Position numbers and translations under genes: made by a program
Notes under the pieces: model-generated
Told to the model about the DNA's origin: nothing
The model's input: only the letters and a program-made list of their open reading frames with translations
Database searches by the model: none
Assembly (NCBI GenBank): GCA_011389515.1
Contig: JAABUA010000010.1
Span: forward strand, 1 to 64,000
Length of the DNA stretch: 64,000 bases
DNA from: Desulfobacteraceae bacterium
GTDB lineage: Bacteria; Desulfobacterota; Desulfobacteria; Desulfobacterales; Desulfosalsimonadaceae
Direction: 5' to 3'
Shown here: positions 2,847-54,364 of the stretch, one piece after another
Numbering within the stretch: position 1 is the first letter of the stretch
Layout: every line of letters begins with the position of its first letter

Positions 2847-3641
2847 ATGCATCTTTTTGACACAGATACTTTATTTGAAGAGCAAGCGGCGGGCATCTTA
2901 AGCGGGAGGATTACCGACAACTGGTCGATTAACGGTAATCCCAACGGCGGGTACTTAGTGGCCGTTGCCGCTGCGGGTCTTCTTAAAAGCAGCGCAAAGC
3001 GGCATACCCCGGTATTGACAGCCAACTTTATTTCCCGTTGCCAACCCGGCAAAGCGGATCTTTCTATCTGGGAAATTGCGCAATCGAGGCAATTTTGCCG
3101 TATGGAAGCAAGACTGCTTCAGCAGGGCCGGGAAAAAATGCGTATGCTTGCGACATTTGCCGATGAACCCGAAAACTGCCTTGTCAAGCGGTATGAAGCA
3201 CCACCGCCGGAAATGGCGGGGCCTGAGAAATGTGTTCCGGTTCCGGTTCTCCCGAAATATACCATGTATGAAAACGCGGATGTGCGCCTGGACCCATCCT
3301 GTGCGGGATGGATGGAGAACAAGCTGAGCCCTGTTTCTGAAAACAGGGGGTGGTTTTCCTTCCGGGAAGCGCGGCCGTTTGACATATGCGCAATCGCCAT
3401 GGCAGCGGACGCATTTCCCCCTGCGGTTCTGGCGAGCCAGGGGATGATGGCATGGGTTCCCACACTTGAAATTTCCATTAATATTAGGCATATACCTCAA
3501 ACACGCTGGTTGAAATGCCGCTTTCGAACCCGGTTTATCAATTGCGGCCTTTTAGAGGAAGACGGAGAAATCTGGGATGAGAATGGCGAACTCGTGGCGA
3601 TTTCCCGCCAGATTGCCCAGCTGCGGCAGGCGGTGTCATGA
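2847..3641 (+). CDS. Acyl-CoA thioesterase-like (double hotdog)
   Basis: About 264 residues from the ATG at 2847, preceded by CAGGACG. An open frame reaching back to 2721 runs into repeat R1 and is not credible. The N-terminal segment with NWSINGNPNGGYLVAVAAAG is typical of double-hotdog thioesterases of the 4HBT_3/TesB type, and a second hotdog half ends near the C-terminus. Such enzymes hydrolyse acyl-CoA esters in the cytoplasm; the acyl chain preferred here cannot be read. The gene ends 25 bases before the sensor kinase at 3666, so the three genes from 2847 to 6588 may be one transcript. Confidence 0.75.
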   Translation: MHLFDTDTLFEEQAAGILSGRITDNWSINGNPNGGYLVAVAAAGLLKSSAKRHTPVLTANFISRCQPGKADLSIWEIAQSRQFCRMEARLLQQGREKMRMLATFADEPENCLVKRYEAPPPEMAGPEKCVPVPVLPKYTMYENADVRLDPSCAGWMENKLSPVSENRGWFSFREARPFDICAIAMAADAFPPAVLASQGMMAWVPTLEISINIRHIPQTRWLKCRFRTRFINCGLLEEDGEIWDENGELVAISRQIAQLRQAVS

Positions 3642-3665
3642 ATGCATTGATGATTGGATAAGGCC

Positions 3666-5141
3666 ATGAAACTGACTTCCAGGGTGGGGCTGTCATCCAG
3701 AATCATCATCCATCTGGCTTTATTGTCTCTTATCATCTTGATTATGGGTATTGTTTCCATATGGCAGACCATGTCTTCCCAGGGAATTATAAACGAACTC
3801 ATCATCAATGACATGGCCGCCAAAAGTGCCGCGCTGGAAATGCAAAGCGCACTTGCCAATCACAAGGGGTATGCAACGTATTACTACCTGGATTCAGATC
3901 CCAAATGGCTTCATGAACTTTCCCATTACAGAAAAGCCTTTGATGACTGGCTGGAAAAGGCTTTATCTGTGGATAAAGACCCGGACCATGTCGCTCTTTT
4001 TGCCCAAATCCGGAGCAAAAACCGGGAATATATCCGCATGAAGGACGACGTGATCCGTCTCTATGAAGGGGAAAACAGGGCTCTTGGCGAAAGCAGGCAC
4101 TGGGAAGTTCGTGAGTTGTTTTTCGAGTTAAACGCGCTTGTAAATGAATATAATGTACGGATTGAAAAAAAGATATCCGGTATAATGGACGCAAGCCAGA
4201 AGAAAACAATCCGTGCCAACTACATGGTGGTGTCTTTTCTGGCTACGTCCCTTATTCTCGTGGCGGTTTTCGGCATACTGCTTGTCCTTCAGGTGATTGG
4301 TCCCATACGAAGAATCGCAGGCTTGACAAGCACAGACCAGGGAGATGAAAAATCGCAAAACGAGGTAACAGCCCTGGGCAGGCGGTTCCAGAATCTTGTC
4401 AGCGACATCGAAAGTTCCCGCAAGGAACTCACCCACAGCAAAACGCTTCTGATGCATTCGGAAAAAATGGCACTGGTCGGCAACCTTGCAACCGAGGTGG
4501 CCCACAGCATCCGGAATCCCATGACATCCATTAATATGCGTCTTTTTTCCCTGCAGCGAAACCTGGAAATGAATGAAAAGCAGCAGGAAGATCTATCCGT
4601 GGTGGCCGAAGAGATGCGCCGTTTGGACAATATCCTGAGGAATTTTCTCGAGTTCTCCCGGCCGCACAAGCTGAAAAAACAGTACGTCGATATCGCCGGA
4701 ATCGTTAATATGACGATCGATCTGCTTCGATACCGGCTCGAAGGGAGCGGCGTGGAAGCTGTGCAGGAGATGCAGGACGGACTGCCTTTTGTGCCGGCGG
4801 ATGCGGAATTGATAAAAGAAGTTTTTGTCAACCTGATTATCAATGCCTGTGAGGCGATGGTGGATGGCGGGCGAATCATTATTTCAGGATACAAGTCGTT
4901 TGCGGAAGAGATCGGCCCGGTCGTCCGGATTGCAATTGCAGACAACGGTCCGGGCATATCCGAAGAAGCCGCAAATCTTATCATGGAGCCGTTTTATACC
5001 ACAAAGCCCGAGGGGACAGGGCTGGGATTGTTTACCGCCGCCCGGATCGTAAACGAGCATGGCGGGGCCATGACATTTGAATCAACCGAGGGAGGAGGCA
5101 CCACGTTTTTTGTAACGCTTCCGATTGTCAGGGATATATGA
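3666..5141 (+). CDS. AtoS/ZraS-like HAMP sensor histidine kinase
   Basis: About 491 residues. I take the ATG at 3666; a TTG at 3654 is the other option. TM1 lies at about 10-32, followed by a periplasmic helical region of about 150 residues that resembles a four-helix sensor, then TM2 near 182-206 and a HAMP linker. HisKA carries its acceptor His near 280 in LATEVAHSIRNPM, and the HATPase has NACEAM and DNGPGI. The stop at 5141 is five bases from the next start, so the kinase is very likely the cognate partner of the sigma-54 activator downstream. Ligand unknown. Confidence 0.88.
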   Translation: MKLTSRVGLSSRIIIHLALLSLIILIMGIVSIWQTMSSQGIINELIINDMAAKSAALEMQSALANHKGYATYYYLDSDPKWLHELSHYRKAFDDWLEKALSVDKDPDHVALFAQIRSKNREYIRMKDDVIRLYEGENRALGESRHWEVRELFFELNALVNEYNVRIEKKISGIMDASQKKTIRANYMVVSFLATSLILVAVFGILLVLQVIGPIRRIAGLTSTDQGDEKSQNEVTALGRRFQNLVSDIESSRKELTHSKTLLMHSEKMALVGNLATEVAHSIRNPMTSINMRLFSLQRNLEMNEKQQEDLSVVAEEMRRLDNILRNFLEFSRPHKLKKQYVDIAGIVNMTIDLLRYRLEGSGVEAVQEMQDGLPFVPADAELIKEVFVNLIINACEAMVDGGRIIISGYKSFAEEIGPVVRIAIADNGPGISEEAANLIMEPFYTTKPEGTGLGLFTAARIVNEHGGAMTFESTEGGGTTFFVTLPIVRDI

Positions 5142-7196: not shown

Positions 7197-8174
7197 TTAT
7201 CCCGCCTGCACCAAGTATCCGATATAACCCACGTACATGGTGAGCAGTATCACCCCCCCGGACCGGTGCAGGGTATAATCCCTTTGCATGAGCAGCCACG
7301 GGATAATACCGGCAAGCAGCATGGCGCCGTAATCGATAAACATGCCGCTTTCCATGAAACCTCCGGGAATGACAATGGGCCGGACCATGGCCGCGGCGCC
7401 CAATACACTTAATATATTAAATACATTGCTGCCCACCAGGTTGCCGATGCTGATGTCCATTTCCCGTTTCAGGGCGGCCACAACGGATGTCGCCAGTTCA
7501 GGCAGGGAGGTCCCGAATGCGACCACGGTTAGTCCGACGAACTTTTCGCTTACGCCGATGCTTTCCATAATCGCAACCACGGAATTGATAAGCACCTGGG
7601 CGCCGATGACCACGAAGGCAATGCCCGCAATGATCAAAATTCCCTGTGTGAGCCCCGAATCTATCACGGCGGCCTTTTCCGCATCCTTGTAGATGTCAGC
7701 TGCTTCCCCCTTTTCACCGGCCTGTGATTTCTTCCACAATGAATAATTAAAGCCGATATAGGCGATGATGCCCGCAAACATAACAAGGCCTTCGATCCGT
7801 GTTATCGTGGAATTGATGGAAAGAATCACCAGGAACAGCGAAATGGCAAGCATCAGGGGGATGTCCCGCCGGACCACCGACCGGTCTGCAGGGATCGGCA
7901 TCAAAAGCGCAGCAATACCCAGTACGAGCGTGGTGTTGCATATGTTGCTTCCCACCACGTTCCCCACGGCGATCATTGACCGGTCGGAAAGTGAAGAGGC
8001 CACGCTGATGACCAGCTCCGGTGCGGATGTGCCAAAAGCCACCACTGTCAATCCGATAATGATCGGGGAGACGCCCAGTCGTCTGGCAAGGCTGGCGGAG
8101 CCCTTGACAAGCCATTCCGCCCCTGCGTAGAGCATCGCGAAACCGATTGCGGTCAGTGTGAAGTGAAGCCACAT
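7197..8174 (-). CDS. Calcium/sodium antiporter (CaCA family, YrbG-like)
   Basis: A 325-residue, highly hydrophobic protein with about ten membrane helices. It has the two inverted alpha-repeats that define the CaCA exchangers: VVAFGTSAPEL near residues 46-56 and VVAFGTSLPEL near 212-222. Each is followed by a GN(V/L)VGSN(I/V) segment that supplies ion ligands. Length and arrangement match the bacterial YrbG group of inner-membrane Ca2+/Na+ exchangers. It is on the same strand as the hyp genes but separated by 173 bases, so it is probably transcribed apart. Confidence 0.9.
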   Translation of the reverse strand: MWLHFTLTAIGFAMLYAGAEWLVKGSASLARRLGVSPIIIGLTVVAFGTSAPELVISVASSLSDRSMIAVGNVVGSNICNTTLVLGIAALLMPIPADRSVVRRDIPLMLAISLFLVILSINSTITRIEGLVMFAGIIAYIGFNYSLWKKSQAGEKGEAADIYKDAEKAAVIDSGLTQGILIIAGIAFVVIGAQVLINSVVAIMESIGVSEKFVGLTVVAFGTSLPELATSVVAALKREMDISIGNLVGSNVFNILSVLGAAAMVRPIVIPGGFMESGMFIDYGAMLLAGIIPWLLMQRDYTLHRSGGVILLTMYVGYIGYLVQAG

Positions 8175-22158: not shown

Positions 22159-25086
22159 ATGAGCAGCTCCCTGAACAACTCGCTACCCCTCTATAATAGT
22201 CGAATACTCAAAGTTTTTTTGGGGTACATTCAGAAAGATTTCCCTGATATCAGCCCGGATGCGGTTCTCAAGGAAGCACAGATTGAAAGCTACGAGATCG
22301 AGGATCCGGCTCACTGGTTTACGCAGGAACAGGTCGATCGTTTTTACGATGCCGCTCTCAAGCTGACAGGAGAACCAAAGATCGCCCGTTATGCAGGTCG
22401 CTTTGCTTCTTCTGAAGCTCTGGGCGCGATAAAGCAATACATATTGGGTTTAATGACCCCTTCAACGATCTATCAGCAAATGGAAAAGGTGTCCCCGCTG
22501 TTCAGCCGCGGTGCAAATATCAAAACCCAGAAAATCAAGTCCAACGTCTTTGAAATTATTGCGACGCCTACGCCGGGAATCGTCGAAAAGCCCTATCAAT
22601 GTGAAAATCGATCGGGCTTCTTTGAAGCGGTGACCAAGCTGTTTACGGATAAGTACGCAAACATCGAACATAAAGAATGCATTCACAAAGGCGATTCGTG
22701 CTGCCGTTACATCATTTCCTGGCACTTCTCGAGGCTTCATTTCTGGAAGCGGATACGCAACTATTTTTTTATTGGCAGCATTGTAACCTGCGGGGTTCTT
22801 TTTTTTATTCTGCCGATGCAATTCTGGACGATTGCCGTGCTGATAGCCATTTTTTTTGCGGTATTGACCGGCTACAATTTTGAAAGGCTGGAAAACAAGG
22901 CGCTTCTCAAAACAATCGAAAACCAGAAAGAAGCGGCCCAGGACCATTTGCTTGAAAGCAACATGCGTTATAACAGTGCCCTTTTGATGCAGGAAATCGG
23001 CCATGCAACATCAACCATCCGGGATGTCGATCGGATTATCAAGACAGTGGCCGGCGTGATGGAAAGACGTCTTGGTTTTGATCGAGGCATGATCATGCTG
23101 ACGAACAAGCAGGAAACAAAGCTTATTTATAAAGGCGGATATGGGCACACCAGCGACCAGGAAAAATTACTGAGAAGCATTGAATTTCACATTAACAAAC
23201 CCGATTCCAAAGGGCTTTTTGTCATCGCATTGAGAAAGCGAAAACCGTTTCTCATCAAAAATCTGAATGATATTGAAAATACATTTTCTCAAAAAAGCCT
23301 GGAGTTTGCAAAGGAGTTGGGCGGCGAGTCGCTCATCTGTGTTCCGATTGTATATGAGAAAAAATCCCTTGGCATCCTGGCGGTCGACAACAGCAGATCC
23401 AAAATGGATTTACGGCAAAGCGACATGAACCTGCTGATGGGTGTTGCCTCGGAAACAGCCATCAGCATTGTCAATGCACTTTCCTTCGAAAAAATCCGAG
23501 AAAGTGAGGCGCGCTACCGCCTTTTGTCGGACAATATTTCTGACATCATCTGGGTGCTGGACCTGTCTGCAGTACACTTTTCGTACGTCAGTCCTTCAAT
23601 TGAAAATATATTGGGGTATACACCCGAAGAATTCATCGGTTTGCGTCCGGAACAAATTTTCCCCCCCCAGTCGTTGCGGCTGGCAACCGCATTAATAAAA
23701 GAAGAGATCGAAAAAGACAAATCCGGCTCGGCCGACCTGAATCGTTCCAAAACCATCGAATTGAAACAATACTGTAAAGATGGAGAAGTCATATGGCTTG
23801 AGATCACCGCAAAATTCATCAGGGGAAAAGACAATCTCCCCAATAGTGTTTTAGGGGTTTCCCGTGATATTACCGAAAGGAAAAAGGCCGAAGAGGAAAA
23901 AAAACAGCTGGAAGCAAAACTCCAGCAAGCGCAGAAAATGGAAGCCGTAGGCACTCTGGCTGGCGGTATTGCGCATGATTTCAACAATATTCTGTCTGTG
24001 GTTATCGGCTATACGGAATTGGGAATGGAAGAAGTTCTGGATAATGCGGGCCTCAAGAAAAAATTGGGAGAAGTGTTAAAAGCCGGATACCGGGCCCGGG
24101 ACCTTGTAAAGCAGATTCTCGCGTTCAGCCGTCAGACAGAAAATAAATTGGAAACAATACGGGTCAAGTTGATCATCAGTGAAGCGCTCAAACTGCTCAG
24201 GGCATCCATGCCCAGCACCATTGAAATCCGGCATAATCTAATGAGTGATTCCATGGTATTGGGTGACCCAACCCAGATTCATCAGATATTGATGAATCTT
24301 TGCACCAACGCGCAGCACGCAATGAGTGAATCCGGGGGGGTTCTCGATGTCAGCCTGAAGGATGTCACCCTTGACGAAGCCTTTTCAAACAAAAATCCGG
24401 ATACGATGCCGGGCCGATTTGTCTGCCTGTCGGTCAGCGATACCGGTCACGGGATTCCTGAAGAAATGATACAGCGGCTGTATGAACCTTTTTTTACTAC
24501 CAAGGGGCCGGACGAGGGAACCGGACTGGGCCTTTCTGTAGTGCATGGCATCGTGAAAAGCCATGGCGGGGCAATCACTGTTCAAAGCAAACTTGGGGAC
24601 GGGTCTACGTTTGCTGTTTTTCTTCCGGTAGCTGAAAAACAGATTCTGCCGCAGAATGCGATCAGGCAGAAGATACCGACGGGAAATGAGCGGGTCTTGT
24701 TCGTTGATGACGAAAAAAGCATTATGGATTTAGGCCGCCAGGTCCTTACGCAGTTGGGATATCAAGTATCCGCCTTGACCAGCAGTCTTGAGGCTCTTGA
24801 ATGTTTCAAAGCGGATCCGAACAGATTTGACCTGGTTATAACGGATATGACCATGCCCCGGATGACAGGGGTCAAGCTGGCCCAGGAATTATTGCATATA
24901 CGGCCGGATATCCCAGTTATACTGTGCACGGGGTTCAGTCAGTCCATAAGTGAAGATCAGGCGTTAAAAGTAGGAATCCGTGCCTTTATCATGAAACCCA
25001 TCAGCATAGAGGAAATCGCCGGGACCATCCGACATGTTTTAGAAGGCCCGGAAAGTACAACTACCGTAACAGATAAAAGCCGATAA
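22159..25086 (+). CDS. Hybrid sensor kinase: V4R-like sensor, TM, GAF, PAS, HisKA, HATPase, REC
   Basis: 975 residues. The first 190 form a soluble sensor with a CIHKGDSCCRYIISW ending, reminiscent of V4R/heme-NO-binding-associated domains; the Cys cluster may hold a metal. Two membrane helices follow (about 195-235), then GAF (about 280-430), PAS (about 450-570), HisKA with His near 606 in GGIAHDFNNIL, an HATPase (DTGHGIP, PFFTTKG) and a C-terminal receiver with Asp near 894 in LVITDMTMPRM and the KP motif IMKPIS. Phosphate could pass to the receiver and then to an unseen phosphotransfer protein. The 3' end overlaps the convergent PilZ gene by 26 bases. Confidence 0.88.
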   Translation: MSSSLNNSLPLYNSRILKVFLGYIQKDFPDISPDAVLKEAQIESYEIEDPAHWFTQEQVDRFYDAALKLTGEPKIARYAGRFASSEALGAIKQYILGLMTPSTIYQQMEKVSPLFSRGANIKTQKIKSNVFEIIATPTPGIVEKPYQCENRSGFFEAVTKLFTDKYANIEHKECIHKGDSCCRYIISWHFSRLHFWKRIRNYFFIGSIVTCGVLFFILPMQFWTIAVLIAIFFAVLTGYNFERLENKALLKTIENQKEAAQDHLLESNMRYNSALLMQEIGHATSTIRDVDRIIKTVAGVMERRLGFDRGMIMLTNKQETKLIYKGGYGHTSDQEKLLRSIEFHINKPDSKGLFVIALRKRKPFLIKNLNDIENTFSQKSLEFAKELGGESLICVPIVYEKKSLGILAVDNSRSKMDLRQSDMNLLMGVASETAISIVNALSFEKIRESEARYRLLSDNISDIIWVLDLSAVHFSYVSPSIENILGYTPEEFIGLRPEQIFPPQSLRLATALIKEEIEKDKSGSADLNRSKTIELKQYCKDGEVIWLEITAKFIRGKDNLPNSVLGVSRDITERKKAEEEKKQLEAKLQQAQKMEAVGTLAGGIAHDFNNILSVVIGYTELGMEEVLDNAGLKKKLGEVLKAGYRARDLVKQILAFSRQTENKLETIRVKLIISEALKLLRASMPSTIEIRHNLMSDSMVLGDPTQIHQILMNLCTNAQHAMSESGGVLDVSLKDVTLDEAFSNKNPDTMPGRFVCLSVSDTGHGIPEEMIQRLYEPFFTTKGPDEGTGLGLSVVHGIVKSHGGAITVQSKLGDGSTFAVFLPVAEKQILPQNAIRQKIPTGNERVLFVDDEKSIMDLGRQVLTQLGYQVSALTSSLEALECFKADPNRFDLVITDMTMPRMTGVKLAQELLHIRPDIPVILCTGFSQSISEDQALKVGIRAFIMKPISIEEIAGTIRHVLEGPESTTTVTDKSR

Positions 25087-25534
25087 CGTTGTCCGTGTCA
25101 GATGCCCGGTGGAAAATTGCCCCCACGTAGGGCGGTTGAATGTATCGTATTTCCACATTCCTTTCCACCCGGGTTTGATTTTTGTCATCGAGCGTAAACA
25201 TGATATTGAGGAAGCATCCCACATAGAATGAAGGGGGAATATTTTCGAATATCATTTGCAAGCCGCTTCGCGACAGGTCATTGACCGTCATAAATCCCGA
25301 AACCCCCGGTTTTTCATCTTTTGAGATAACCGTATAAAATCCCGGCAGCTCCGTTTTTTTTCGGTAATGTCGCCGGTATTCCAGCTGAATGCCCGAGATG
25401 CTTCCACAAGAACATTTTATCCGCACATGAATATGCCCCTTAAAACGGGATACGTCCAGGTTTTTGGTTTTTTTGCATTTTGGGCAGGAAATGCTCACTG
25501 TGTTGTCAGGTTCTACAAAAAATTTTGCCATCAT
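25061..25534 (-). CDS. Zinc ribbon-PilZ protein
   Basis: 157 residues. The N-terminal 45 form a zinc ribbon: CPKC near residue 18 and CSCG near 42, separated by a basic KGHIHVRIK segment. The rest (about 60-157) is a PilZ-like barrel with VNDLSRSGLQMIFE matching the (D/N)xSxxG motif and RRHYRKK as a possible arginine motif. PilZ domains bind c-di-GMP; the RxxxR is imperfect, so binding is likely but not certain. Its zinc ribbon is clearly related to the one at the C-terminus of the PilZ protein at 28056, where the domain order is reversed. The stop lies inside the 3' end of the kinase gene on the other strand. Confidence 0.78.
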   Translation of the reverse strand: MMAKFFVEPDNTVSISCPKCKKTKNLDVSRFKGHIHVRIKCSCGSISGIQLEYRRHYRKKTELPGFYTVISKDEKPGVSGFMTVNDLSRSGLQMIFENIPPSFYVGCFLNIMFTLDDKNQTRVERNVEIRYIQPPYVGAIFHRASDTDNVIGFYLLR

Positions 25535-27858: not shown

Positions 27859-27886
27859 TTGACACCTTATTGTTTCGCAGTATTAT
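27859..27886 (+). promoter_or_regulatory. Sigma-70 promoter of the PilZ riboswitch transcript
   Basis: TTGACA (27859-27864), a 16-base spacer and TATTAT (27881-27886). Transcription would start near 27893, just before the first conserved riboswitch bases. Confidence 0.7.
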
Positions 27887-27892
27887 GAACAT

Positions 27893-28018
27893 ACGAAAAA
27901 GCCAAACCAATTGTAAAATTGGGACGGAAAATCACGGATCTTCGCTGCGTCTGAGCTTGCTTATAATTCGATTAAGATAGCCGGATTGCCATTTCAATAG
28001 TGGCATTGCGGCTTTTTT
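27893..28018 (+). promoter_or_regulatory. GEMM-I c-di-GMP riboswitch with terminator, upstream of pilZ
   Basis: The conserved GCCAAACC is followed by a hairpin CCAATT-GTAA-AATTGG closed by a GNRA tetraloop, then GGACGGAAAATCACGGATCTT, a variable loop, AAGATAGCCGG, and an overlapping terminator (stem 27980-28012, then six T). In Vc2 numbering, position 20 is G, which favours c-di-GMP over cGAMP. Positions 21 and 46 are C and G instead of G and C, a compensatory pair change. The PilZ gene starts 38 bases later. Confidence 0.85.
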
Positions 28019-28055
28019 ATTTGTTTTTCAAATATGTATATTAAGACAGGTCGAA

Positions 28056-28625
28056 ATGGACAGCCAGCACAATCAACCCCGCTATAATGAGAAACGAGTG
28101 TGCCCCAGGGTGGAAACCGTAAATAAGGTCGGCTACATTCTGTTGGATAAGCACATGGAAAAAGTCGGGCATGGAAAGGGGAGGACGCTGAACCTGAGTC
28201 AAAAAGGGACGCTTCTGGAAACGCGAAACCCGACGTTTGGCTGTTTTGTTATTCTTGTGGCAACAGATTTGAAGGGAAAACAGCTACAGGTAAAAGGCCG
28301 TTTGGTCAATACCCGTCAATCCGATACGACCGGTTTTTATCTGACTGGGGTCCGATTTTCCGGATCCCGGGAGGAATATATAAATGCCATTGTTGCCTTT
28401 ATAAAAGTCTACCATAACCGCAAACAGCTTAATCAAAATAACCGGCTCTACTCAACGCCGGAAAAAGTATATGTAACTGCCGACAACACGTTCATCATTA
28501 CCTGTCCGCGATGCAAAAAATCAAAAGAACTGGATGGATCCCTGTTAAAGGGGCATATGAAAGTCAGGATCAAATGCCGTTGCGGAAACGTTTGGAAAAA
28601 CTACTTGATCAGGGAAGGTTCCTGA
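28056..28625 (+). CDS. PilZ-zinc ribbon protein under riboswitch control
   Basis: 189 residues. The N-terminal PilZ domain (about 8-120) has the arginine motif in NEKRVCPRVE and NLSQKG as the (D/N)xSxxG motif, so c-di-GMP binding is likely. The C-terminal 45 residues are a zinc ribbon (CPRC near 151, CRCG near 176) with the same KGHMKVRIKC core as the protein encoded at 25061. The gene begins 38 bases after a GEMM riboswitch terminator, so c-di-GMP appears to control both synthesis and activity. No membrane segment, so cytoplasmic. Target unknown. Confidence 0.85.
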   Translation: MDSQHNQPRYNEKRVCPRVETVNKVGYILLDKHMEKVGHGKGRTLNLSQKGTLLETRNPTFGCFVILVATDLKGKQLQVKGRLVNTRQSDTTGFYLTGVRFSGSREEYINAIVAFIKVYHNRKQLNQNNRLYSTPEKVYVTADNTFIITCPRCKKSKELDGSLLKGHMKVRIKCRCGNVWKNYLIREGS

Positions 28626-28713: not shown

Positions 28714-29157
28714 CTATTTCTTCGTGGGAATAACAGTCACAGGAACAGGTGAATGCTTGACAACCCGTTCCGTGATGCTGCCAAAACTGAAATTGCCGCT
28801 TTCGCCCTCTTTTGCCATCACCACACTGTCGATATTTTCATTTTTGATGAATTTCAGGATTTCCGCTGCGGGATCGCCTACTGCAACATGCTTTATAAAC
28901 AGTCTGCATCCCTCCAGGTAATTATCACATATCTGGTCGAGCCTTTCTGACGCCCTGCTCCTCATTTTTTCCATGAGTTTTTCCATATGCCCTTCTTCAA
29001 ATTCACCGTACCAGCTTTCATGGTGCACGATATCATCAATGACATGAAGCAGGTGAATCTCCGACGCATGATTGATCCCGAGCGATTTTACATATGGCAG
29101 TGCGGCCTGGGCGCTGTCTGAAAAATCAGTGGGCCAAAGAACCTTTCGGATTTCCAT
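28714..29157 (-). CDS. Universal stress protein UspA
   Basis: 147 residues, a single UspA domain. It starts RKVLWPTDFSDSAQAALPYV and ends with a Gly-rich loop and hydrophobic strand (GESGNFSFGSITERVVKHSP), which matches the ATP-binding G-x2-G-x9-G-(S/T) pattern. Two such proteins occur in the window; this one and the tandem form at 13759 are only distantly alike. It is divergent from the 7TM hybrid kinase and shares with it the 305-bp region that holds the ACGAAAT repeats and a sigma-54 promoter, though that promoter points to the kinase. Confidence 0.92.
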   Translation of the reverse strand: MEIRKVLWPTDFSDSAQAALPYVKSLGINHASEIHLLHVIDDIVHHESWYGEFEEGHMEKLMEKMRSRASERLDQICDNYLEGCRLFIKHVAVGDPAAEILKFIKNENIDSVVMAKEGESGNFSFGSITERVVKHSPVPVTVIPTKK

Positions 29158-37956: not shown

Positions 37957-38058
37957 TTATGAAAAAGCCAAACTGATCGTGAGATCAGGACGGAACGTCA
38001 CGGGTCTTAACAAGATAGCCGGACTGCCATTGTAATAGCGGTAGTCCGGTTTTTTTTT
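37957..38058 (+). promoter_or_regulatory. GEMM-I c-di-GMP riboswitch with terminator, upstream of SGNH gene
   Basis: It has GCCAAAC, a hairpin CTGATC-GTGA-GATCAG with a GNRA loop, GGACGGAACGTCACGGGTCTT, AAGATAGCC, then a strong terminator (CCGGACTGCC / GGTAGTCCGG, 38019-38049) and nine T. It has the same G at Vc2 position 20 and the same C21-G46 pair as the copy at 27.9 kb. The next gene starts 240 bases downstream; I see nothing further in 38060-38298. Confidence 0.85.
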
Positions 38059-38298: not shown

Positions 38299-40266
38299 AT
38301 GAGACGCATTTCTTATTTAGTGTGGTTTGGCGCTTTCATGGCCCTATCCTGCCTTATCGCTGCAGGGGCCGGTGCGAGCACGATCGCCCAGAACTCGGAA
38401 TGGAACGTCACGCGGGAGGGTGCCCAGGACACCCTTCGTATTGTCGCCTATGGGGACTCCATTATCGCCGGTTACATAGATACCGACACGATTGCGCAAC
38501 GTGCTTCAACGCACGTTGCCGGTGAATATGGTGCCGCCCTTTTGGGGCAGAACATCGAGATCCGTCGACGGGCGCAATCCGGTGCGGTGGCCAAGGGTAT
38601 CTACGACAGGATCACCTCTTCAACAGATACCGCCTTCATGCAGACCTCAAATACGCGGGGTGTGCATGTTGTTATGTGCGGCAACGACTATCTCCAGGCC
38701 CGCTCCGATTTCGCGGGTCAAACCGGGACATGCGACTATACAGGACTGGAAACCGCGCTTGCCAACTGCATTTACTATACCGATTTGTCCCTGGCCTACA
38801 TCAATGCGATGGCGCATCCGGAGGCAAAGCTCAAAATGCTCGGCAACCTTTATTACCCCGGTTTTGACGCGGACAATGTCCAGACCGACTGCACCGACCC
38901 GTATACCGGGGTGACTTTCAACCGGCGCGACAAGTTCCTTCCCCTTATGGCAGAGAGCAACTGGGAGACCTGCAACCTTGCCGATCAACATGGATGGCAA
39001 TGCGCGGACAACTTTGCGGAAACCATGGCTGCCGACTATGACTCCAACGGGGATGGAATCATTGACAATGAAGCAATCCGCTACATCTCAGGGGAGTCCA
39101 AGACGGATTATATTAACCGCATTGTGGCGGCATACCAGGCTGGCCTCCTGACAGACGCCAATTACAAGGAAATCAGCCCATCTGCCACCGTGGACTACCT
39201 CCTTTCCGACGACACCCATATGACCTATCTGGGCCCCACAGGCAAAGCAGGCACCAGCGGCAATACCCCGGGAGGCGACGTCGAAGTTTACCATGCCACG
39301 GACGGCGCATACCCTGACGGCAAAAACCCCAGCTGGAATATGAACGGGCACGATCGCATGGGCTATGCGCTGGCAACCAACTATGATCTGAACGTGGACG
39401 CAGGCCCTGACGCAACCCTTAATGCAGGCGAAACCTTTCTAAGCCAATGCACATTTAACGACAAGGTGTTTTTCGGGCCATGGAACATCTGGGTGGATTA
39501 CGGCGATGGCACGGGGGAATCGGCCACGGTCTCCGAGATGTCATTTAACCTGAACCACCAGTACACGGCAGGCGGGACTTATACGGTGGAGGTCGTTGTT
39601 GCGGGCGCCTATGGCACGATGTGGGTAGATACCGCAACGGTCACCGTGATTGGTGACGCTGCCACGAATGAAGCGCCGGTAGCTGCGGATGATTCTTATT
39701 CCGTCAATGAAGGGGAAATTTTGAGCGTGTCCGCCCCCGGTGTTCTGGCAAACGATACGGATCCGGACGGTGATCCGCTGACCGCCGTTCTGTATAGTGC
39801 GCCCGCCGGCGGAAGTCTGAGCCTTAATGCGGACGGCTCTTTTACGTATACACCGAATGCAGGCACGACAAGCGATTCATTTCAATATACCGCCAGCGAC
39901 GGCACGGCTGTTTCCGCTCCGGCCACGGTTTCCATTACCGTGAACAGTACCTCGGGCAACCAGCCGCCTGTTGCGGTTGACGATTTTGCGGATACGAAAA
40001 GGAATGTTGCGGTCCATATAAACATGGCCGCCAATGACTCGGATATCGACGGCAACCTCACGGATGCTTATGGAGACGTCAGCGCAGGCCAGTTTACTAT
40101 TGTCACCCCCCCGACCAAGCGCGGCACGGTGGAGCTGGTGACCAACGGGGTCAACTACACGCCGGGGAAAAATTTTACCGGCACGGAATTGTTCACGTAC
40201 ACGGTGAAAGATCTTGATGGGGCTGTATCGAATGAGGCCACTGTCACGGTCAATGTGACCCGGTAG
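38299..40266 (+). CDS. Secreted SGNH-hydrolase-like protein with PKD and cadherin/VCBS-type repeats
   Basis: 655 residues. A signal peptide (about 1-26) precedes an SGNH/GDSL-like domain: VAYGDSIIAGY with Ser54 as candidate nucleophile, VVMCGNDY as a GxND block, and DDTHMTYLG near 304-312 as the Asp-His pair. A PKD-like domain follows (about 375-450, WNIWVDYGDGTG), then two bacterial-Ig/cadherin-type repeats with LANDTDPDGDPLT and ANDSDIDGN calcium-binding patterns. There is no C-terminal anchor, so it is secreted or held by partners. It probably deacylates or binds an extracellular polysaccharide. The c-di-GMP riboswitch upstream fits a biofilm or adhesion role. Confidence 0.82.
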   Translation: MRRISYLVWFGAFMALSCLIAAGAGASTIAQNSEWNVTREGAQDTLRIVAYGDSIIAGYIDTDTIAQRASTHVAGEYGAALLGQNIEIRRRAQSGAVAKGIYDRITSSTDTAFMQTSNTRGVHVVMCGNDYLQARSDFAGQTGTCDYTGLETALANCIYYTDLSLAYINAMAHPEAKLKMLGNLYYPGFDADNVQTDCTDPYTGVTFNRRDKFLPLMAESNWETCNLADQHGWQCADNFAETMAADYDSNGDGIIDNEAIRYISGESKTDYINRIVAAYQAGLLTDANYKEISPSATVDYLLSDDTHMTYLGPTGKAGTSGNTPGGDVEVYHATDGAYPDGKNPSWNMNGHDRMGYALATNYDLNVDAGPDATLNAGETFLSQCTFNDKVFFGPWNIWVDYGDGTGESATVSEMSFNLNHQYTAGGTYTVEVVVAGAYGTMWVDTATVTVIGDAATNEAPVAADDSYSVNEGEILSVSAPGVLANDTDPDGDPLTAVLYSAPAGGSLSLNADGSFTYTPNAGTTSDSFQYTASDGTAVSAPATVSITVNSTSGNQPPVAVDDFADTKRNVAVHINMAANDSDIDGNLTDAYGDVSAGQFTIVTPPTKRGTVELVTNGVNYTPGKNFTGTELFTYTVKDLDGAVSNEATVTVNVTR

Positions 40267-52629: not shown

Positions 52630-52716
52630 ACAAAGTAAAGCCAAGCCAATTGTGAGATTGGGCCGGAAAGTCAAAGGTCTTTTCGAAACTGGTTTTCCAG
52701 GTTCATACTGCTGACT
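52630..52716 (+). promoter_or_regulatory. Degenerate GEMM-like element upstream of kaiC
   Basis: AAAGCCAAGCC is followed by a hairpin CCAATT-GTGA-GATTGG with a GNRA loop and GGGCCGGAAAGTCAAAGGTC, so the first half matches the two GEMM riboswitches of this window. The second half (TCTTTTCGAAACTGG) departs from the consensus AAGATAGCCGG. A different ending, with a CTGGTTTTCCAG palindrome and an AAGTCA/TGACTTTTT pairing, could form a terminator. It may be a diverged or decayed riboswitch. It ends about 115 bases before kaiC. Confidence 0.5.
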
Positions 52717-52831: not shown

Positions 52832-54364
52832 ATGAACCAGCATACAGGCGCCAACCATTTTATCCCCATAGATCAGATTCAATCCATTCCCAAAATAGTC
52901 ACCCGCATTCACGGACTGGACGAAATCCTGGAAGGTGGATTGCCCGAAGGCCATATCACGGCTGTTGTCGGCGGTCCCGGTGCCGGCAAGACCGTAATAG
53001 GCCTTGAATTTGCCTATCGAAGCGCACTGGCTGGAGAACCTTGTATTTTCGTATCTTTTGAAGAACGGGCGTCCGACCTGCGCACAAATGCCCTGGCCAT
53101 GGGCTGGGATCTCAAGCGCCTCGAAGATACCGGCAAACTGTTTCTTATCGATTCCCGGCCCGGACCGGATGTGATCCGCGACGGCGAATATAATCTCAAT
53201 GGCCTGCTGGCGATACTGGAGGGAACGTCCGAAGCTATGAACGCCCGCAGGCTGGTCATTGATTCCATGGACGTGATACTGCGAATCTTCAAGGATTCCA
53301 CCCGACAAGAGGACCAGCTTTACCAGTTGACGGACTGGTTGAATAAAAAAGCCATCTCAGCGATACTTACCGCCCGGATGATTTCCGAGACCAATACATT
53401 TACCAGCCATCGGTTCCTGGAGTTTGCGGCCGACTGCCTGATCAAGATGGACGCCCGGGTAGACGGGCAGATTGCCACCCGTCGACTTCGAATCGCGAAA
53501 TACCGGGGGTCGAGCTTCGGAAGCAACGAATACCCTTATATTATCAGCCAGGGCGGCCTTTTCCTGCTGCCCATCAGCACGATGGGGCTGAAACACGCCC
53601 CCCTGGGTAAACCGATCTCAAGCGGCAGACCGGAAATAGACGAGGTTCTGGGCGGCGGTTATCGACGTGCATCCAGTATACTTGTCACGGGAGGCGCAGG
53701 CACCGGAAAAACCACCCTGCTATCGACCTTTGTCGAGGCGGCCTGCAAGCGCGGGGAAAAAGTGCTGTTCGTCAACTTCGAGGAATCCGCCGAAGCCATG
53801 ATGAGCGCGATGTCAAGCATCAACATTGACCTGGACCCTTTCTTCAGGGACGGAACGATGCAAATGATCACAGCCATGCCTGAGTCCATGGGGGCCGAAG
53901 AACATTTTTTCCGGGTCTTTCAGGCAATTGAACAATTTGTACCGGATCATGTTTTGGTGGACGCGGTCTCGGCGACACTGCGAATAGGCACGCCGCAGGC
54001 AGCTTTCGAATATATGATGCGGCTGGTCAACACATGCAAGGAACTCGGCATCACGGCCCTGATGAGCAATCAGGGGAGCGGCAGTGCGATAAATATTGAA
54101 AAAAGCAGCAACCTGGGCATCTCTTCGCTCGTGGACGCCCTGCTCCTGCTGCGCTACGTGCCCAAAGGCGCCGAAATCGGCCGCCTGCTTGTCGTTGTCA
54201 AATCGCGTGGCATGGCCCACTCGAATCAATATCATGAATTTAAGATTACCGATCAGGGAATTGTTCTTCTGGAGCCGTTTGGAGAGGGCGGGCATCCAGG
54301 ATCGGATCTGAAGGGGGAACAGGGAACTCCTGCAATTCATCCGCGAAACTGGGAGAGTAGATAA
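52832..54364 (+). CDS. kaiC: KaiC-like dual RecA ATPase
   Basis: 510 residues, close to the 519 of cyanobacterial KaiC. Two RecA-type domains: CI with Walker A GGPGAGKT near 47-54 and the catalytic Glu pair in SFEERASDLR; CII with GGAGTGKT near 286-293 and NFEESAEAM. Ser431 and Ser432 (GISSLVD) align with the autophosphorylated Ser431/Thr432 of Synechococcus KaiC, and Ser426 with Thr426. It is the first gene of a coupled kaiC-kaiB-kinase operon with overlapping stops and starts. KaiA is absent from the window, as is usual outside cyanobacteria. Output may be stress or timing; a true clock is not implied. Confidence 0.88.
   Translation: MNQHTGANHFIPIDQIQSIPKIVTRIHGLDEILEGGLPEGHITAVVGGPGAGKTVIGLEFAYRSALAGEPCIFVSFEERASDLRTNALAMGWDLKRLEDTGKLFLIDSRPGPDVIRDGEYNLNGLLAILEGTSEAMNARRLVIDSMDVILRIFKDSTRQEDQLYQLTDWLNKKAISAILTARMISETNTFTSHRFLEFAADCLIKMDARVDGQIATRRLRIAKYRGSSFGSNEYPYIISQGGLFLLPISTMGLKHAPLGKPISSGRPEIDEVLGGGYRRASSILVTGGAGTGKTTLLSTFVEAACKRGEKVLFVNFEESAEAMMSAMSSINIDLDPFFRDGTMQMITAMPESMGAEEHFFRVFQAIEQFVPDHVLVDAVSATLRIGTPQAAFEYMMRLVNTCKELGITALMSNQGSGSAINIEKSSNLGISSLVDALLLLRYVPKGAEIGRLLVVVKSRGMAHSNQYHEFKITDQGIVLLEPFGEGGHPGSDLKGEQGTPAIHPRNWESR

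Follow-up and report, generated by a model that had tools for sequence, protein, structure and literature searches.

How might a single second messenger come to govern both the supply and the activity of one of its own receptors? The question is raised by a locus, in a bacterium akin to the sulfate reducers, at which a leader of the c-di-GMP-I (GEMM-I) class stands ahead of a gene for a PilZ protein; the window, that is, the whole stretch of 64,000 nucleotides that was analysed, corresponds to contig C11 in a draft genome of 3.24 Mb. The reading favoured here, at a probability of roughly 0.7, is that an ON-type, transcription-terminating c-di-GMP-I riboswitch controls a single PilZ-zinc-ribbon gene in a coherent feed-forward arrangement. 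The fuller proposition, in which c-di-GMP acts twice by turning on the receptor gene through the ON riboswitch and then binding the receptor so made, is put forward tentatively, at slightly less than even odds. The elements that a sequence-only reading of the locus had listed, namely a promoter, a GEMM-I core with a GNRA loop, a C21-G46 pair, a terminator and a PilZ gene, were all confirmed, the promoter as a promoter-like site (Table 1).

Table 1. Features of the riboswitch-PilZ locus, in window coordinates
Feature	Positions	Strand	Detail
Sigma-70-like promoter	27859-27886	+	TTGACA (27859-27864), 16-nt spacer, TATTAT (27881-27886); 11 of 12 consensus letters
c-di-GMP-I (GEMM-I) riboswitch aptamer	27892-27994	+	RF03167, 62.4 bits; RF01051, 66.2 bits (27891-27993)
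P2 hairpin	27902-27927	+	GUAA loop 27913-27916; C21-G46 pair 27902/27927
P3	27930-27987	+	5' strand 27930-27940; 3' strand 27976-27987
Intrinsic terminator (predicted)	27979-28018	+	5' arm overlapping P3 3' strand; hairpin 27979-28013, then TTTTTT (T-tract 28013-28018)
PilZ protein, 189 aa, C-terminal zinc ribbon	28056-28625	+	ATG 28056, stop 28625
RxxxR motif, R14-R18	28095-28109	+	both arginines conserved in all 13 aligned sequences
NxSxxG motif, N46 S48 G51	28191-28208	+	invariant in 13 of 13
Zinc-ribbon-like region	28494-28598	+	PF13717, 21.3 bits, below cut-off of 30.3

Leader, promoter and ligand

The aptamer match is better than chance, with an E value of 2.4e-12 against RF03167 (gathering threshold 59) and a score above the gathering threshold of 35 for RF01051. 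The P2 loop is of the GNRA type, and P1 is weak, two of its three Rfam-model pairs being non-standard in the window copy. For comparison, 104 RF01051 matches were collected from the 25 genomes of the bacterial family (G000-G024), 23 of which have matches. Three sub-cut-off matches, in G006, G009 and G018, were left out and 101 used; two of these 101, both in the window's genome, also score below the family cut-off.

The promoter match by itself is weak proof and is not significant alone, because three sites with at least 9 of 12 consensus letters were found where shuffles gave an expectation of 2.9. Promoter-like sites occur in 64 of the 101 real family leaders versus 48 of 101 shuffled ones, and the gap to the aptamer is 3-6 nt in 33 of the 64 leaders that have a site; the window copy, with a gap of 4-5 nt, falls within this peak. 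Transcription would start at, or just ahead of, the aptamer. At the other end of the leader, an AGG 5 nt upstream of the PilZ ATG is at best a weak ribosome site. The PilZ gene looks monocistronic, since the next large frame (28714-29157, with a universal-stress-like product) lies on the opposite strand.

The canonical contact bases G20 (27901) and A47 (27928) indicate c-di-GMP, rather than cGAMP, as the probable ligand. Three contact residues of the Vc1 riboswitch are named in PMC4744006. Among the family's 101 aptamers, 98 have G20 and 99 have A47. We take two of the three Vc1 residues to correspond to G20 and A47, and the third, C92, presumably falls at C27981 or C27982, both of which are C.

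An A at position 20 is the usual mark of cGAMP (GEMM-Ib) riboswitches; it was sought in the window aptamer, where it is absent and the base is G. It does occur in three of the 101 family aptamers, so that the bacterial family may hold cGAMP-like variants, of which the window copy is not one. Cyclic GMP-AMP-making GGDEF domains carry a serine, as described in PMC8835794. The window's genome has 13 GGDEF domains, and the ten of them that were read by pattern are all GHxxGD, with the cGAMP-type serine variant in none. The place of the serine within the GGDEF motif, as applied to this readout, is our assumption. It is accordingly very improbable that the window aptamer senses 3',3'-cGAMP and that its link to a c-di-GMP receptor represents cross-talk of two signals: the A20 copies in the family and a terminator layout that resembles, by analogy, that of the cGAMP pilM switch would suit such a sensor, but the G20 of the window copy disfavours cGAMP as its ligand, and so do the GGDEF domains that could be read.

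Terminator, switch sign and leader subtypes

The predicted terminator hairpin folds at -19.0 kcal/mol, and its 5' arm, which starts at 27979, belongs to the 3' strand of P3. Aptamer and terminator are thus mutually exclusive, which predicts a transcriptional ON switch. The complementarity between the aptamer 3' end and the downstream sequence exceeds chance: the 3' end with the next 40 nt folds at -19.9 kcal/mol, versus -11.1 +/- 2.7 kcal/mol for shuffles, of which 2 in 1000 were as good. By permissive criteria, 80 of the 101 family leaders have a hairpin, followed by a T-tract, that overlaps the aptamer 3' end by at least 8 nt. The window terminator, whose stem has two mismatches, was not listed by a consensus terminator scanner. 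In the best RNAfold structure of the whole leader (-37.6 kcal/mol), the A-rich 5' stretch pairs with the tail of the terminator, and the aptamer and the complete terminator are both absent; enforcing the aptamer gives -16.8 kcal/mol. The folding order during transcription is here taken as decisive over the thermodynamic fold.

An OFF switch, in which the ligand favours termination and c-di-GMP lowers the amount of receptor in an incoherent feed-forward loop, is unlikely. The class includes OFF switches, such as Cd1 (PMC9262584), and the weak P1 together with the RNAfold outcome leaves space for an unseen antiterminator; however, the terminator takes the aptamer's own P3 3' strand, which makes a bound aptamer and a terminator incompatible. 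In the preferred ON reading, the P3 3' strand would, without ligand, join the downstream sequence in the terminator, and transcription would stop before the PilZ gene; with c-di-GMP, the folded aptamer would keep that strand, the terminator would be blocked, and the gene would be transcribed.

The C21-G46 pair, earlier described as compensatory, proved to be real without being a private oddity of this leader. In a MAFFT alignment of the 101 family aptamers, positions 21 and 46 covary, with C-G in 78 copies, G-C in 18, U-G in three and no pair in two; C-G is thus the local norm in the bacterial family. In GEMM RNAs, the GAAA loop and the 11-nt receptor co-occur. When the two unpaired copies are excluded, a GAAA loop is present in 13 of 18 G-C copies versus 5 of 81 C-G or U-G copies, and 10 of the 18 but 0 of the 81 have the CCUAA receptor element. 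These counts do not represent independent events because the aptamer copies are related, so a Fisher p-value computed from them overstates what it appears to show and is not to be read literally. A rough test for a paired arm with a U run in reach was positive in 69 of 80 C-G copies versus 4 of 18 G-C copies (three of the 101 aptamers were unclassed, and one of the 80 C-G copies was too short). Many G-C copies show instead a CCTCC...GGAGG arrangement by which the ribosome site could be masked.

Two coupled GEMM-I subtypes can be discerned among the 101 aptamers, the first with C21-G46, GUGA, GUAA, GCGA or GCAA loops and terminators, and the second with G21-C46, GAAA loops, the CCUAA receptor and apparent masking of the ribosome site. 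These observations add data on a Desulfobacterales GEMM-I subtype whose 21-46 pair, P2 loop and expression platform vary in concert. Outside the bacterial family, an order-level genome (G044, contig C109) carries six tandem GEMM-I aptamers within about 520 nt (locus L077, 690-1206).

The PilZ protein and its pairing with a riboswitch

The encoded protein matches PF07238 (PilZ) over residues 32-116 with 26 bits (cut-off 22.5) and no NCBIfam model. R14, R18, N46, S48 and G51 are invariant in alignments of 13 and of 19 sequences. An AlphaFold2 model reached a mean pLDDT of 77.9 and a pTM of 0.56, with a poor N-terminus and linker. Its top 22 PDB structure matches all contain PilZ, several with c-di-GMP, the first being MotI/DgrA, cellulose synthase PilZ, MrkH and Alg44 with c-di-GMP; the best E value is 6.6e-4, and the whole-query TM-score (TMq) is only about 0.4 because the ribbon is unmatched. 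A PDB sequence search with a PilZ profile gave no relative and one chance-level match. The protein is a probable c-di-GMP receptor on the strength of sequence and structure models, which also back the riboswitch class and the probable c-di-GMP ligand proposed earlier.

Since the product carries the PilZ residues for c-di-GMP binding, one signal would raise the amount of the receptor as well as its activity, and the ON-switch anatomy would make this a coherent feed-forward loop. The sequence-only reading had left the choice between feed-forward and feedback; coherent feed-forward is the better reading given the ON anatomy, and feedback is unsupported and was rejected, as neither Pfam nor NCBIfam gave any sign of a protein that makes or degrades c-di-GMP. 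If the proposal is true, the RNA-plus-protein loop would steepen the response, and PilZ output would wait for sustained c-di-GMP; the locus would then be a small natural system in which to see how a c-di-GMP response is shaped when one ligand governs both synthesis and activity of a receptor.

A paralogue on contig C100 of the genome is 53% identical to the window protein, and both this paralogue and a relative in the same-genus genome G001 have a second PilZ-like part beyond the ribbon that is missing in the window gene. The relatives of the protein (22 loci) come, where genomes are named, from Desulfobacteraceae, Desulfobacterales or Deltaproteobacteria metagenome genomes. A companion ribbon-PilZ gene lies in the window at 25061-25534 (-), with a ribbon 56% identical and a PF07238 score of 20.9, just below the cut-off of 22.5.

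A PilZ gene is the directly next gene after one of the 101 family aptamers, the window copy alone, as counted with our own profile from 26 PilZ sequences of these genomes, which a very divergent PilZ could escape; seven of the 101 have no downstream frame of at least 90 codons within the stretch examined. Similarly, 38 order-level aptamers out of 39 (all but G046 C204, at a contig edge) were examined, and no PilZ was found in the stretch downstream of any of them. Conversely, no c-di-GMP leader reaching the Rfam gathering score precedes PilZ at 34 PilZ loci, five of them in the window's genome, or at 20 of the 22 loci of relatives noted above (all but L184 and L185), which partly repeat genomes of the 34-locus set. 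At L181, a riboswitch (3561-3646) is placed after its PilZ frame (3001-3363). On contig C59 of G009, the gene after a riboswitch at 8090-8164 (-) is TetR-like, and a PilZ gene follows on that strand at a distance of about 2.6 kb, so that these possibly form one operon; a second riboswitch there, at 4373-4476 (+), points towards this PilZ gene from the opposite strand. Control of a PilZ gene by a c-di-GMP riboswitch is not reported in the titles and abstract openings searched, which does not show its absence from print.

The pairing is either a lineage-special target or a local accident. A reading in which the leader was recently brought to the PilZ gene by rearrangement, or is in decay, and has little regulatory role would fit a pairing found at one of the 139 aptamers examined, a weak P1 and a protein that resembles a PilZ-ribbon-PilZ relative minus its last domain; against it, the leader retains an undamaged aptamer core, promoter-like site and terminator in register with an intact start codon, and the protein retains both PilZ motifs, which leaves this account improbable and regulation of the PilZ gene by the leader preferred.

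A second c-di-GMP-I riboswitch in the window, at 37958-38032 (+), scores 61.9 bits and has an overlapping terminator, its 3'-end/downstream complementarity being equalled in 0 of 1000 shuffles; it is followed by a gene (38299-40266) for a large protein with tandem-95-like repeats. This arrangement recurs with a closely similar secreted-protein gene on contig C30 of the same-genus G001, whereas the PilZ pairing was seen at no other locus examined. A sub-threshold, probably decayed GEMM-I-like leader at 52631-52716 (+; 27.1 bits) precedes a gene (52832-54364) that looks KaiC-like by eye, and in the same-genus G005 (contig C254) a GEMM-I aptamer over the cut-off stands before a protein very similar to the product of that gene.

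Relation to known riboswitches and PilZ receptors

With the c-di-GMP-I class (RF01051 and RF03167), the window aptamer shares the overall fold, a GNRA P2 loop, G20 and A47, and a 5' leader position. It differs in its C-G pair at 21-46, in GUAA in place of GAAA, in lacking the CCUAA receptor, and in A47, a position at which RF03167, to which the Rfam scan assigned the leader, has a consensus G; all of these deviations are common among the aptamers of the bacterial family. The closest parallel to the proposed mechanism is the Geobacter pilM cGAMP riboswitch, an ON switch in which aptamer and terminator are mutually exclusive and the ligand-pairing C is sequestered (PMC9262584); both build the terminator from the aptamer's own 3' strand, but the pocket of the window copy, with G20, is of the c-di-GMP type. 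With the PilZ receptors YcgR, Alg44 and MotI/DgrA, the window protein shares the PilZ domain, the RxxxR and NxSxxG motifs and a similar predicted fold; unlike them, it is short and carries a C-terminal zinc ribbon. The parts of the locus are known or ordinary, and it is their combination that is uncommon.
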